NCBI GenBank assembly: GCA_030680955.1
Contig: JAUXUB010000010.1
Location: 1 to 32,747 of the forward strand
Direction of reading: 5' to 3'
Source: a bacterium
GTDB lineage: Bacteria > Patescibacteriota > Minisyncoccia > UBA6257 > JACOXY01
Length of the DNA stretch: 32,747 bases
Numbering within the stretch: the stretch's first letter is position 1; every line of letters starts with the position of its first letter. The notes beneath the pieces are model-generated. The model saw only the letters and a program-made list of their open reading frames with translations, searched no databases and was not told where the DNA came from. Of this stretch, positions 8,727 to 28,317 are shown one piece after another. The translations under genes were made by a program, and so were the position numbers.

Positions 8727-8782
8727 CATATCTCTGCTGGTATTAAATTATCAAAATATGGAATTGATTGCAATAGAGCTAA

Positions 8783-8936
8783 TACCATCCCCAATTAACC
8801 ACTACTCTTTTAACCTCGTCTTTGCGAGGAGGAACGACGAAGCAATCCAGATTTATCCCATTATTTCCTGGATTGCCGCGGGCTTCGCCCTCGCAATGAC
8901 AAAAGTCTTAAAAGAAGTGGTTAATTGGGGATAGTA
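8783..8936. mobile_element. MITE-like element, copy 1
   Basis: Ends TACCATCCCCAATTAACCACT / AAGTGGTTAATTGGGGATAGTA are inverted repeats; whole ~154 bp is near-identical to the reverse complement of 11640-11791. Confidence 0.8.
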
Positions 8937-8960
8937 TAATGTGCTTTCAAATAAGGATAT

Positions 8961-11607: not shown

Positions 11608-11639
11608 TTAGTCTTAAAAATTTAGTTGAAATGATTATT

Positions 11640-11791
11640 TTATCCTAAATTAACCACTTCCTATAAGACTTTTGTCATTGCGAGGGCGAAGCCCGTGGCA
11701 ATCCAGGAAATAACGGGATGAATCTGGATTGCTTCGTCGTTCCTCCTCGCAAAGACGATATTAAAGGAGTAGTGGCTAATTGAGGATGGTA
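11640..11791. mobile_element. MITE-like element, copy 2 (inverted relative to copy 1)
   Basis: Reverse complement TACCATCCTCAATTAGCCACTACTCCTTTAATATCGTCTTTGCGAGGAGGAACGACGAAGC... aligns across copy 1. Confidence 0.8.
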
Positions 11792-11802
11792 TTATTAAAC
11801 CA

Positions 11803-12861: not shown

Positions 12862-15537
12862 TTAATTGAATCTTGGCATACGCGCAAAATACTTGCGTAT
12901 TTCTTCTACGATAATAATAGAAAAAGCTATCGGAATAATTATAAACCACTCATTTAATGATAAGGGAACAGTATAAAGAAACTTTTGCATTAGGGGATTA
13001 TAAAGGGCAAATAAGTGAAGTGTAAATATTGTAATAGTAGCTCCGATAAGATATTTATTCGAAAAGGAATTCATTTGAAAAATTGATTTGTTTTCAGACC
13101 TACAATTCCAAGCATTAAACCATTGGAAAACTGCCAGTGTTGTGAGTGAAATTGTTAACGCTTTTATTGGATCAATAGCAAGAAATTCATTAAACAAATA
13201 TAGAGTTCCGACCATCATCGGGAGCGACATAAAAATCATTCTAATTCCCATTTTCTTATCTACAAGATGCTTAGAGCGCTTGGAATTTCCTTTTAGTAAT
13301 CCAGAGCTTTTGGGCTCCATAGCTAGTGCAACATCCAAAAAACCATCCGTTACAAGATTTAGCCAAATTATTTGAGCAGGTAAGATTGGCAATGGCAATC
13401 CGATTAAAATCGCGCCTCCTATAGTTAGTACTTCGCCAATGCTTGTAGAGAAAAGATATAATATAACTTTTTTTATAGTTTTGTAAATTGCTCTACCTTC
13501 TTCTATTGCAGAAACGATACTTTTAAAATTATCGTCGAGCAGAATAATGTCGGACGCCTCTTTGGCTACTTCAGTACCAATTTTACCCATAGCAATACCA
13601 AGGTCTGCCGCTACAAGCGAGGGAGCGTCATTTACGCCGTCGCCGGTCATTGCTATTATTTTCCCACTTTTTCTATAGAGCTCTATTATTCGTAATTTGT
13701 TTTTTGGAGTAACTCTTGCAAAAACGGAAACATTATTAATGATATTTAATAATGCGGCTTCGGAGAGCGAGATGATATCAAGTCCTGTTAAAATTTCATC
13801 ACCATCGTGATATATTCCTGCTTCGCGAGCAACCGCTATTGCTGTTGTTTTGTAGTCGCCAGTAATCATTACAACTTTTATACCAGCGTTAGTAGCGCGC
13901 TTTATTGCTTCAGCTGCTTCTGGCCGGATGGCATCTTTCATTCCAAAAAAACCTAAAAATGATAGTGAGTTAATATCTTTTGGTTCAATAATTTTGCCTC
14001 GATGGTTTAGTGTAGCTAAGGCTACTATACGCAAACCTTGTTCAGTCAAGTTTTCAAAAACAGATTCTAGCTCAATTCGCTTTGTTTTAGTAAGAGGAAT
14101 ATTTTTCCCATTTAAATAAATTTTGTTAGATAGTTTTAGTATCTCTTCAGGTGCACCAGAAACTAAAATGAGTCCCTTCCCTGTAATATTATGAAGTGAT
14201 GCGCGATATTTAAGCTTATAATCAAAAGGAATTTCTGAAATAAGAGGGGAGGTAAGAATTAATTCTTCTCTGTGGAAGCCAATTTTTTCACCTAGCGCAA
14301 GCATTGCCGCTTCAGTTGGATCGCCAGAAATATTCCACTTATCTTGCTCTTCACTATAATATAATTTTGCTTGAGCAGTCAGAGCTAAAATCTTTCCAAT
14401 AAACTTTAGTTCAGGATAATTATTAGGATTGATTACTTTATTATCCAGTGAAATTTCGCCTTTTGGTTTATATCCATCACCGCTTATCTCGAACATTTTT
14501 CCATTAAGATATACTTTCTGAATTAGCATTTCATTTTTTGTGATTGTTCCAGTTTTATCAACTGCGATAACATTTGCTTGTCCCAATGCCTCAACAGCCT
14601 GAAGTCTTTTAACTAGTGCGTTCCTTTTTGCCATTCTCCAAACTCCAGTTGTGAGCACAAGAGTTACAACAATTGGCAGACCTTCAGGTATAATAGAAAC
14701 AATCAAAGAGACAATAGTTCTAAACATTGTGCCAACAGAGTTACCAACCATAATGCCCATAACAAATAGTGTGGCACCCACGATTGCAACCGCGTAGATT
14801 ATTAATTGAGTGAGATATCGTACGTCGGCTTTAAGTGGAATTTCTGTATCAATTGATTTTATATCTTTTGCTATTTTACCAATTACAGAATTTTTACCAG
14901 TATGTATAACAATTGCTCTTCCGTTTCCACTTACTATATTGGTACCTTTAAAAACCATGTTTTTCTGGTCATGAATTTCCAAATTTAAATCTAAAATATC
15001 ATCCGTGGTTTTATGTATTGGAACAGACTCACCAGTAAGAGATGCCTCATCTATTTTAAGATTTGATGAGTAAATTATTCTAGAATCCGCTGGAACTTTT
15101 TCGCCTTCTTTCAGAATCAAAATATCGCCAGGCACAACTTCTATATCTTTTATAATGGCTTCGTTGCCATCTCGTAGAACGTTTGCATTAGTTTGTATAA
15201 AATTTTTAAGCGCAGAAAGAGTATTTTGCGCCTTGCCTTCTTGGATGGTTCCAATTACTGCGTTAAAAAAAAGTACAAAAACTATTATGTAGCTGTCAGT
15301 TATTTCGCCTGTTAAATAAACAATTACGCTGGCGATAAAAAGAATATAAATAAGCGGGCTTTGAAATTGTCGTAAAAATATACGGAGTAGGTTATCAACT
15401 TTTTCTTCTGGGAGTGAATTTGGTCCATATTTCTTGAAACGTTTTAAGACTTCTTCTTGTCGCAATCCTTTTTCGCTTGAATCAAGTTTTTTGAAAATAT
15501 CAGGAATAGATTCTAAATACCAGTTGTTATTATTCAT
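12862..15537 (-). CDS. Cation-transporting P-type ATPase (type II, Ca2+-ATPase-like)
   Basis: TGES, PEGLPIVVTL, DKTGTITKNEM, MTGDGVNDAPSL motifs. Confidence 0.93.
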   Translation of the reverse strand: MNNNNWYLESIPDIFKKLDSSEKGLRQEEVLKRFKKYGPNSLPEEKVDNLLRIFLRQFQSPLIYILFIASVIVYLTGEITDSYIIVFVLFFNAVIGTIQEGKAQNTLSALKNFIQTNANVLRDGNEAIIKDIEVVPGDILILKEGEKVPADSRIIYSSNLKIDEASLTGESVPIHKTTDDILDLNLEIHDQKNMVFKGTNIVSGNGRAIVIHTGKNSVIGKIAKDIKSIDTEIPLKADVRYLTQLIIYAVAIVGATLFVMGIMVGNSVGTMFRTIVSLIVSIIPEGLPIVVTLVLTTGVWRMAKRNALVKRLQAVEALGQANVIAVDKTGTITKNEMLIQKVYLNGKMFEISGDGYKPKGEISLDNKVINPNNYPELKFIGKILALTAQAKLYYSEEQDKWNISGDPTEAAMLALGEKIGFHREELILTSPLISEIPFDYKLKYRASLHNITGKGLILVSGAPEEILKLSNKIYLNGKNIPLTKTKRIELESVFENLTEQGLRIVALATLNHRGKIIEPKDINSLSFLGFFGMKDAIRPEAAEAIKRATNAGIKVVMITGDYKTTAIAVAREAGIYHDGDEILTGLDIISLSEAALLNIINNVSVFARVTPKNKLRIIELYRKSGKIIAMTGDGVNDAPSLVAADLGIAMGKIGTEVAKEASDIILLDDNFKSIVSAIEEGRAIYKTIKKVILYLFSTSIGEVLTIGGAILIGLPLPILPAQIIWLNLVTDGFLDVALAMEPKSSGLLKGNSKRSKHLVDKKMGIRMIFMSLPMMVGTLYLFNEFLAIDPIKALTISLTTLAVFQWFNAWNCRSENKSIFQMNSFSNKYLIGATITIFTLHLFALYNPLMQKFLYTVPLSLNEWFIIIPIAFSIIIVEEIRKYFARMPRFN

Positions 15538-15653
15538 CCCATTTAGAGATAGCTCGGAAAGATGAGCATCGTCTGTTAATATTAATAATAGCCGACATTT
15601 TATTTTAGTTTAACATTATATTTTGAATCATAACCCCGTTATCTCTAACGGGA
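15537..15653. repeat. TCCCGTTAGA inverted-repeat spacer element, copy A
   Basis: TCCCATTTAGAGATAgctcgg...ccccgTTATCTCTAACGGGA; 117 bp; right end (minus sense) runs into the ATPase ATG. Confidence 0.65.
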
Positions 15654-25832: not shown

Positions 25833-26438
25833 ATGTCGGCATTTAATTTTAAAAATTCAAACGGTAAATTATTTGATACAAATAGCGCCGAAGGCAAACA
25901 AGCGCTTCGTGAAACAAATTTAAAAGGAAAAATGGCAGAGTCCTTAGTTTTTGATTTATTAAAGGAATCAGGGAACGAGGTTTATAACATTGGGATAGAA
26001 CATTCGTTGCCGGCGCTTACTCATATTAGGCGCGAACTTATGGGCAGTAAAGCGGGAGAAAAGCTACGGATTATCCCAGATTTTTTTGTAATTGATTCTA
26101 AAAAAAGAGCTCATCTTGTAGAAGTTAAATTTCGTTGGCATCCAAAAGGACATGAGTCTGATGTTTTGAGGTTGCGAAGGTTGGCACTTTTATGGGAAGA
26201 GGCAATTGTAGTTTTTGTTAATTGCTCAAGAAAACCATATTTTCAATTTTCCGAAGCGCCTTTTGTAAAAGAGAAAACTGTTTTATTGGAACCTATCTAT
26301 GAGTATTCTCACTTTGGTATTAAAGAAAATCTTTTAGATAAGTTTGATGAGCTTGTTGAAAAATATTTAAAACCGACACTTAAAACTCCACTTCCAAAAG
26401 ATTCGTCTATAATCGATCACTCCGCACATTATCTATAA
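25833..26438 (+). CDS. Predicted PD-(D/E)XK nuclease-like protein
   Basis: IIPDFFVIDSKKRAHLVEVKFRW (PD...EVK) after an N-terminal helix with E (KMAESLVFDLL). Confidence 0.6.
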   Translation: MSAFNFKNSNGKLFDTNSAEGKQALRETNLKGKMAESLVFDLLKESGNEVYNIGIEHSLPALTHIRRELMGSKAGEKLRIIPDFFVIDSKKRAHLVEVKFRWHPKGHESDVLRLRRLALLWEEAIVVFVNCSRKPYFQFSEAPFVKEKTVLLEPIYEYSHFGIKENLLDKFDELVEKYLKPTLKTPLPKDSSIIDHSAHYL

Positions 26439-27124
26439 TGCCAAATAATACAACGGGTACTATATATGTAGTTGCCACTCCAATTGGTAATTTGGGAGAT
26501 ATCACAGCTCGCGCACTTCTGGTGCTCAAAAATTCTTCTGTAATATTTGCAGAAGATACACGAGTTACACAAAAGCTTGTAACTCATTTTGAACTCCACA
26601 CAAAAATATCACATTACGATGAGCATAAACCTCAAAGAACCATAGAAGAAGCAGTTAGATATTTAGAGGATGGAAAAGATATTGGAATTGTGTCAGATGC
26701 TGGTACACCAGGCATTTCAGACCCTGGTTCTGTACTTATCACTGGTATAAGAAAAACTCTTCAGGGCGCGCCAATTATAGCCATTCCTGGGCCTTCTGCT
26801 GTCATTTCTGCTCTTTCTGTATCCGGAATTAGCGCTAATAAATTCACTTTTTTAGGTTATCCGCCACTCAAGAATAAACGAAAAAAATTCTTCAGTAGTA
26901 TTAAGGAAACCGAAATAAGACCAGTAGTTTTATATGAATCCCCTCATAGACTGCAAAAAACGCTAAAAGAAATTGGCGAAGTGTATGGCTTGGATTATCA
27001 AATTTTTGTCTCTAAAGAATTAACTAAAATACACGAAACAAATATTTTATTAAGCATAAATGATGCAATAAATTATTTTGTAGCAGAACGCGGCAAGGGC
27101 GAGTTCGTAATAATAATTCCATAA
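26438..27124 (+). CDS. rsmI: 16S rRNA (cytidine(1402)-2'-O)-methyltransferase
   Basis: IYVVATPIGNLGDITARAL, AEDTRVTQKL, SDAGTPGISDPG, PGPSAVISALSVSG. Confidence 0.95.
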   Translation: MPNNTTGTIYVVATPIGNLGDITARALLVLKNSSVIFAEDTRVTQKLVTHFELHTKISHYDEHKPQRTIEEAVRYLEDGKDIGIVSDAGTPGISDPGSVLITGIRKTLQGAPIIAIPGPSAVISALSVSGISANKFTFLGYPPLKNKRKKFFSSIKETEIRPVVLYESPHRLQKTLKEIGEVYGLDYQIFVSKELTKIHETNILLSINDAINYFVAERGKGEFVIIIP

Positions 27125-27242
27125 TCCCGTTAGAAGCCGCGATCGCTTATATTAAAATATTGACCAGTGATAATATAACAATGAATTACATAATTAATAG
27201 TAGAACGCGTGAATTTATGATCGCGATCTGCTTCTAACGGGA
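27125..27242. repeat. TCCCGTTAGA inverted-repeat spacer element, copy B
   Basis: TCCCGTTAGAAGC-CGCGATC ... GATCGCG-atct-GCTTCTAACGGGA; begins right after rsmI TAA and ends on the A of the next ATG. Confidence 0.75.
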
Positions 27243-28201
27243 TGAATACTCTTAAATTATTAGCTGTTCTACTTATACTTATATTAGGAGTTAATTTTGC
27301 GTTTCCAGAAAAAAGCGCAGAATTTAGCAGTAAGTTTGTTTTCGCAGTAGAAAGTATTTTTAATAAAGCCTCTACAACAATTGATAAAACTGGGGCTAAC
27401 GCATCTACAAGTTTAAAAGATGATCTAAATAAACTCCCTGAAACTTCTGAAGTACAGCCAAATAAAATTACTGAAGCTCAAAAAGTTACTTACGACAAGC
27501 CACTACGTGCTCCTAACGCTCAAACACCAGTTGTAGATGTTGTTTTGACCGAAGTTGGCGTTGTTAGTTGGACGAATCAGGCTCGAATTAATGCTAATCT
27601 TCCTTCACTTAAGGTTAATGCCAATTTAAGCGCAGGAGCCAAGGCAAAGGTTCAAGATATGTTTATAAAGCAATATTTTGATCATATTTCGCCATCTGGC
27701 ACAGGGCCGGCAGAAATTGCTAAACAATCTGGATATGAATATATTCTTGTTGGAGAAAATCTTGCCTTAGGTAATTTTAAAAATGATCAAGAATTACTTG
27801 CGGCTTGGATGGCCTCTCCCGGGCATCGTGCTAATATATTAAATACACGCTACACAGAGATTGGAGTTGCGATTCAAAAAGGTAATTTTGAAGGACAAGA
27901 TGTATGGATGGCTGTTCAGGAGTTTGGTTTGCCCCTAGCTAATTGTCCAAGTCCAGATGCAACATTAAAAGATCAAATTACTTCCAGCGAAAATTTGATT
28001 AAAGATCTTTATACAGAACTGCAAAGGCGCAAAGAAGTGATTGCGAGCACTCCAACTGATACTGCATCATACAATGATTTGGTTGCAGCGTATAACGAAC
28101 GGATAATAGCATATAACAAACAAATTGAAGCTACTCGTGTTAAAATAGAAACATATAATGCCGAAGTTAAAACGTTTAATCTCTGCTTGCAAGGGACATA
28201 A
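27242..28201 (+). CDS. CAP/SCP-domain secreted protein
   Basis: N-terminal signal-like helix; WTNQARINANLPSLKVNANLSAGAKAK..DHISPSG..VGENLALG..AWMASPGHRANILN. Confidence 0.9.
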   Translation: MNTLKLLAVLLILILGVNFAFPEKSAEFSSKFVFAVESIFNKASTTIDKTGANASTSLKDDLNKLPETSEVQPNKITEAQKVTYDKPLRAPNAQTPVVDVVLTEVGVVSWTNQARINANLPSLKVNANLSAGAKAKVQDMFIKQYFDHISPSGTGPAEIAKQSGYEYILVGENLALGNFKNDQELLAAWMASPGHRANILNTRYTEIGVAIQKGNFEGQDVWMAVQEFGLPLANCPSPDATLKDQITSSENLIKDLYTELQRRKEVIASTPTDTASYNDLVAAYNERIIAYNKQIEATRVKIETYNAEVKTFNLCLQGT

Positions 28202-28202
28202 G

Positions 28203-28317
28203 TCCCGTTAGAAATAGAACGCGACGTCAAAAAATAAAATAATCATTTTAATTAACAAATACTATATTAATTAATAATACTTAAAATTAGAATATACGTT
28301 AGCTATTTCTAATGGGA
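28203..28317. repeat. TCCCGTTAGA inverted-repeat spacer element, copy C
   Basis: TCCCGTTAGAAATAG-AACG ... CGTT-ag-CTATTTCTAATGGGA; begins 1 nt after the CAP gene TAA. Confidence 0.75.

Follow-up and report, generated by a model that had tools for sequence, protein, structure and literature searches.

Palindrome-ended, probably mobile elements at gene start codons in Patescibacteria, with a small GIY-YIG nuclease as candidate mobiliser

Prokaryotic MITEs (Correia, RUP and others; PMC10969869) are short, non-autonomous, intergenic sequences with terminal inverted repeats (TIRs) and a target duplication that often lie just upstream of genes, and the review that describes them mentions neither start codons nor GIY-YIG. 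Rickettsia palindromic elements (RPEs), as summarized in PMC10969869, encode a conserved peptide and insert in frame inside ORFs; they are palindromic mobile repeats with an open frame that genes tolerate. REP/REPIN systems combine a single-copy DNA enzyme, the Y1-type RAYT, with many hairpin-forming non-autonomous copies whose imperfect stem contains a bulge. To our knowledge, REPINs are not associated with target duplications. In homing, the new copy of a gene arises at the same allelic site. Small selfish GIY-YIG genes located between host genes encode free-standing homing endonucleases (phage T4 seg genes; PMC1564403). Here we describe a family of palindrome-ended elements that resembles each of these systems in part.

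The stretch of DNA analysed, hereafter the window, comprises 32,747 nt (contig JAUXUB010000010.1 of assembly GCA_030680955.1) from a Patescibacteriota genome of 1.07 Mb in 80 contigs. Three elements with the ends proposed in an initial annotation of this DNA were confirmed in it: copy A (117 bp; 15537–15653, minus strand), copy B (118 bp; 27125–27242, plus strand) and copy C (115 bp; 28203–28317, plus strand). Copy B lies between rsmI and a CAP-domain gene (PF00188) and is bounded by a left TIR (TCCCGTTAGAAGC, 27125–27137) and a right TIR (GCTTCTAACGGGA, 27230–27242), both supported by pairing statistics. As had been proposed, the end of copy B supplies the ATG of the CAP gene, the last A of the element and the flanking TG together forming the start codon (27242–27244, plus strand). 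Within the element, a mini-ORF (MNYIINSRTREFMIAICF, 27181–27237, plus strand) ends at a TAA in the right repeat, 4 nt upstream of this ATG. On the left, the flank ATAA (27121–27124) includes the stop codon TAA of rsmI; the RsmI sequence (26438–27124, 228 aa) matches only positions 2–219 of a 275-position model and may be either a short form or one truncated near the element. Judging from the intact ATGAA at other copies, ATAA is probably a decayed copy of the TGAA target at 27243–27246, in which case the site before insertion would have been an overlap of the form ...ATT CCA TGA/ATGAAT, with the left copy ATGAA later reduced to ATAA.

Read on the minus strand, copy A ends at the first codon (15535–15537, minus strand) of a P-type (calcium-type) ATPase gene, again formed from the element and a flanking TG. 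The mini-ORF of copy A (MSAIININRRCSSFRAISKWDE, 15530–15598, minus strand) stops at a TAA, read from the sequence, that overlaps the beginning of the ATPase coding sequence (ATGAATAA), and the low-coordinate arm of the element has a 1-nt insertion (TCCCATTTAGA). Copy C has no ATG mini-ORF and is flanked by the imperfect repeat TAAG/TAAT; it sits at the CAP-gene stop codon and not at a start codon. The predicted RNA folds of B and C beat 200 of 200 dinucleotide shuffles (z = −5.7 and −4.7, respectively), the fold of A being weaker (z = −3.3). A separate repeat family, a 161-bp palindromic repeat with GTCATTGCGAGG...CAATCCAG, is present in the window as two inverted copies that are 91% alike (8780–8940 and 11634–11794).

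The paired pattern TCCC[AG]TTAGA-N-TCTAA[CT]GGGA, with a spacer of 70–100, occurred 30 times in the window's genome compared with 0 for a reversed control pattern, and half-sites numbered 103 compared with 2 in the control. When nested and short copies and one manually paired copy were counted, this genome contained at least 42 paired copies. Of 121 genomes in the same order, 31 carried the family, with as many as 29 copies in one genome; at least 117 stretches were matched among 84,980 species genomes scanned, and at least 120 further copies from other genomes, nearly all of them Patescibacteria, were assembled as an independent set. Almost all of the matches listed were from Patescibacteria, including Parcubacteria, Saccharibacteria and Doudnabacteria; also among the matches listed were single ones labelled Desulfobacterales, Omnitrophota and Planctomycetes, which could be mis-binned. 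A phage origin was rejected, as viral contigs contained no match at the strict pattern, and integron attC sites were rejected on the reversed order of the two conserved boxes.

As in MITEs, the elements are short, lack a transposase gene and have TIRs: 222 copies of about 95–130 bp carry 13-bp complementary ends. At stem positions 11–13, beyond the 10 bases that the search pattern prescribed, 94–96% of 214 distinct copies are complementary, compared with 44–51% when partners were shuffled; since complementarity extends beyond the search-fixed bases, the earlier observation that the inner stem bases change together is borne out. The interiors had been described as all unrelated, which is incorrect, because subfamilies exist. 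Copy B itself has a 96.6% identical twin (G000:C2:4964–5081), which has unrelated flanks and a perfect TGAA duplication and heads a secY gene. Hairpin versions of only 47–59 bp that share these ends but are too short for a mini-ORF were also observed (G000 C20:16917–16966, C45:30336–30382, C48:9910–9968, C48:15483–15536 and C53:3626–3672). A second repeat family (CTGACCCGATGACC...GGTCATCAGGTCAG) is nested in several elements (G000 C6:10283–10534, C15:38553–38780, C71:6143–6262 and C49:6502). At two further loci, L070:1501–1619 (G036:C36:9713–9831) and L077:1501–1609, a whole tRNA gene lies between the same repeats, one read as tRNA-Leu and the other as tRNA-Pro; these copies have CTTG on one side and no matching duplication, and are apparently mobile or captured tRNA genes.

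Direct repeats of 4–5 bp flank the copies, mostly ATGAA or ATGGA. With copies oriented so that the flank TGAA, when present, was at the right, exact 4-bp direct repeats were found at 53 of 102 copies, compared with 24 expected when partners were shuffled (maximum 34 in 2000 trials), and in 18 of 41 compared with 5.8 expected after the TGAA cases were removed. In the independent set the direct repeats matched in 87 of 120 copies, and TGGA was paired with TGGA in 18 of 24 compared with 2 of 96. The elements thus share with MITEs a target site duplication, which at some copies is 5 bp long (TGAAA, TGGCA). Some junctions have no matching repeats, notably those with CTTG at the left and TGAA at the right. 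Mismatched flanks of this kind, with CTTG left and TGAA (or CGAA, TGAG) right, recur at copy A and at L084, L103, L108, L070, L077, L177, L206 and L262, and the 50-bp copy at C20:16917 has CTTG at both sides.

Insertion can also be read from the arrangement of the copies. At C13 and C38 one element is nested within another, flanked by a CAGG duplication, and the empty sequence GAGACAGGTCGCGG can be read from sister copies; tandem insertions occur as well. In genome G069 the element makes up the whole gap between ftsW and murG (119 nt), with the ftsW stop codon TGA inside the left ATGAA, while the gap is about 2–40 nt in several homologues, whose intergenic sequences are too diverged for alignment. 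Target duplications, near-identical copies in unrelated flanks, nested insertions and the ftsW–murG insertion uphold the suggestion of a mobile spacer, and we are highly confident that the family consists of mobile elements at start codons.

With respect to placement, the ATG composed of the last A of the element and the flanking TG is the first codon of an ORF of at least 40 codons in 86 of 113 copies, and the opposite end heads a gene in 2 of 113. The corresponding figure in the independent set, for which the search pattern itself required the ATG, was 110 of 120 copies heading an ORF of at least 60 codons. At 25 of 156 non-coding ATGRR sites (about 16%) the ATG was an annotated start by a crude gene call; measured against this background, with the start annotation there being crude, a target preference alone was rejected as insufficient to produce the start-codon bias. 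About a quarter of the copies, including copy C, are off start codons by the strict test. Of 82 copies, 60 retain the old host ATG at their left junction, and no Shine-Dalgarno-like consensus was found ahead of it in the flanks of oriented copies. In 13 of 82 copies an upstream stop is at most 6 nt away, indicating that the element can occupy stop/start overlaps without harm to either gene. The target genes include secY, a class II (lysS-like) tRNA synthetase gene, polA and murG; because the targets are generally important genes, insertion must permit their expression. The elements differ from MITEs in sitting exactly at the start codon, where the ATG is rebuilt and a mini-ORF preserved, and in having a GIY-YIG nuclease, not a transposase, as candidate partner.

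Read back from the TAA of TCTAACGGGA, the frame stays open for a mean of 23.3 codons, compared with 14.5 ± 0.8 in shuffled sequences; the remaining five frames gave 11.6–14.8. In 44 of 102 copies this frame has an ATG 16 or more codons before the right-repeat TAA, versus 6.2 ± 2.3 expected (maximum 12 in 200 shuffles), and this was replicated in the independent set, where 43 of 120 copies had an ATG-started frame of at least 16 codons (7.6 ± 2.6 expected; 2–11 in other frames). Between related pairs, 3% of codon changes created stops in the mini-ORF frame, compared with 6–21%. Differences were spread over the three codon positions (261/262/245), and synonymous changes were not in excess. Stops are thus avoided with no synonymous excess, indicating that the openness of the frame is kept and not a peptide; a conserved or known peptide was ruled out by the lack of codon-level conservation. 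The elements differ in this respect from RPEs, since they conserve an open frame but not its peptide, and this frame is located ahead of the gene.

An open frame without conserved amino acids favours, as far as sequence can indicate, a translational relay over a useful peptide. In 39 of the 67 copies whose length places the host ATG in frame with the TAA, the frame is open throughout. Of the 212 start-type copies, 92 lack both routes, having no ATG mini-ORF that reaches 6 codons and no frame from the host ATG that runs to the restored start, so that a relay is no more than one solution among several. Within this limit, we consider it reasonably probable that translation is relayed across the element. 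By analogy with known termination–reinitiation, the stem may hide the restored ATG until a ribosome opens it, the stop being 4 nt before the ATG. The translational coupling by an RNA stem that the initial annotation had suggested thus survives in a changed form, in which the feature kept is an open mini-ORF stopping 4 nt before the restored start and not only a stem.

Were the stem sufficient by itself, it would loop out the element and bring the old ribosome-binding region or stop beside the restored AUG, or else RNA splicing would remove the element. Complementary ends, stable predicted folds and the short 47–59 bp hairpin versions are in keeping with looping; however, a stem alone does not predict one open frame, and the interiors of many copies would form a loop of about 90 nt. 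As for splicing, the elements matched no Rfam family, whether group I, group II or other, and an Rfam search on twelve element-bearing loci returned tRNAs only and no intron family. We regard either route as very unlikely. A constant orientation, a position exactly in front of genes, a covarying stem and an open mini-ORF could also point to maintained regulatory devices, in which a 5' leader with a hairpin and a mini-ORF was spread by selection for gene control and not by selfish movement. This is hard to reconcile with unrelated target genes, a copy number that ranges from 0 to 29 between relatives, an unconserved peptide, nested and tandem insertions, and the absence of the element from the orthologous ftsW–murG junctions inspected, and we assign it a similarly small probability.

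A link to a nuclease came from the window's own genome, in which the copy at C17:60–337 is filled by a GIY-YIG gene ending in RSLSLTG, whose last codons are the right repeat. Across the order, 19 of 20 GIY-YIG relatives of the C17 type were flanked by matching inverted repeats (score of at least 11), compared with 1.2% of 515 control ORFs; as the 20 genes are mostly closest matches, the statement applies to this subfamily only, and several other GIY-YIG genes of the window's genome lack such repeats. The flanking repeats differ widely between genes while their arms remain complementary. When loci around known copies or GIY-YIG genes were searched for TCCC...GGGA ends 130–3000 bp apart, every single gene-bearing element was 275–279 bp long and GIY-YIG-coding, one being frame-broken (L229). 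The sole gene in these elements encodes a GIY-YIG nuclease of 85–87 aa. They share ends, duplications and sites with the small elements: 8 of 10 were placed at the start codon of an ORF 150 or more codons long, and exact duplications were found in five. The coding members contain the GIY-YIG domain (PF01541, E = 8e-19), and residues Y3, Y5, Y16, G18, R26, H30 and E63 are invariant across 15 proteins, leaving the active site intact. By the strict pattern, small elements occurred in 10 of 14 genomes with a close GIY-YIG gene compared with 21 of 107 without (Fisher p = 1.6e-4). Another group of GIY-YIG elements (L143, L145, L147, L148, L150 and L153) has CCCCGTTAGATA or CCCTGTTAAATAA ends; in this group the GIY-YIG stop codon TAA often abuts the next ATG (GGGTAAATG), and a clear target duplication was not seen.

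Taken with the sequence associations above, the GIY-YIG protein is the candidate mobiliser of the family, a role that we think it probably has. We know of no GIY-YIG enzyme that acts as a transposase, nor of any mobile context for UPF0213 proteins. The latter are sequence relatives of the nuclease, the solved proteins (PDB 1zg2 and 1ywl; 1zg2 E = 2e-11) being annotated as hypothetical. Unlike homing endonuclease genes, the copies described here occupy numerous unrelated sites and are accompanied by duplications and inverted repeats; the family also includes a non-autonomous form. The start codon as the usual site, the mini-ORF and the GIY-YIG relatives had all been missed by the initial annotation.

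Alternatively, these may be ordinary MITEs of a conventional (DDE or HUH) insertion sequence that is absent or elsewhere, the GIY-YIG gene being a passenger and start codons being where insertions survive. TIRs and target duplications are typical of MITEs, the window's genome contains a single DDE_Tnp_1 gene along with three Y1 (RAYT-like) genes, and two copies enclose tRNA genes, so that cargo besides GIY-YIG exists. Yet the three resident Y1_Tnp genes carry palindromes of their own, unlike the shared palindrome of REPIN/RAYT systems, and TCCCGTTAGA ends are absent both from these genes and from the DDE gene; rve and IS1595 transposases were not found in the window's genome. RAYT, DDE_Tnp_1, rve and IS1595 were accordingly rejected as resident mobilisers, being absent there or having no shared ends. 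Moreover, no other protein gene lay within family ends up to 3 kb in the loci around known copies or GIY-YIG genes, and matching repeats also bound GIY-YIG genes whose terminal repeats are quite unlike those of the family. Overall, we find a conventional insertion sequence unlikely as the source. The RAYT-like genes (L305–L307; G000 C34, C45 and C15) are each flanked by their own palindrome, which also occurs inside the gene.

The explanation that we prefer, with a probability of roughly 0.6, is a family of palindrome-ended mobile elements that combines start-codon insertion, a translational relay and an autonomous GIY-YIG form with non-autonomous copies of about 118 bp. Elements with 13-bp TIRs lie between 4–5 bp direct repeats, usually at the site A|TGRA at a gene start and in one orientation, such that the original ATGNN stays at the left junction while the element's final A and the duplicated TG rebuild the ATG of the gene. 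In many 118-bp copies the retained host ATG, an internal ATG or both open a short frame ending at the right-repeat TAA (TAACGGGATG), as the frame statistics show. Ribosomes entering the element may melt the stem, stop beside the rebuilt ATG and re-initiate, so that the gene would still be expressed. The 275–279 bp GIY-YIG members would represent the autonomous form, with the copies of about 118 bp moved in trans, and the nuclease would either provide the sole strand chemistry or merely cut the target or hairpin for host repair. More tentatively, and at somewhat less than even odds, the family would be a new class of transposable element of about 277 bp that uses a single GIY-YIG protein as transposase and is specific for start codons, which it rebuilds, together with a 118-bp non-autonomous relay form with an arbitrary mini-cistron. 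No earlier description was found in the published open-licence papers that the search covered, and novelty is therefore provisional.

If this is true, the autonomous element, at about 277 bp, would fall far below the size of the autonomous bacterial insertion sequences known to us. The family also suggests a route by which essential genes in compact genomes can be invaded and remain unbroken: the start codon is duplicated, the terminal A rebuilds the ATG, and ribosomes are carried over on a frame whose encoded residues are immaterial. The 2006 survey of the GIY-YIG superfamily closes by asking whether further GIY-YIG members are molecular parasites (PMC1564403), a question that the element loci make directly testable. 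For annotation, small GIY-YIG genes and gene-start mini-ORFs in Patescibacteria may be parts of such elements.
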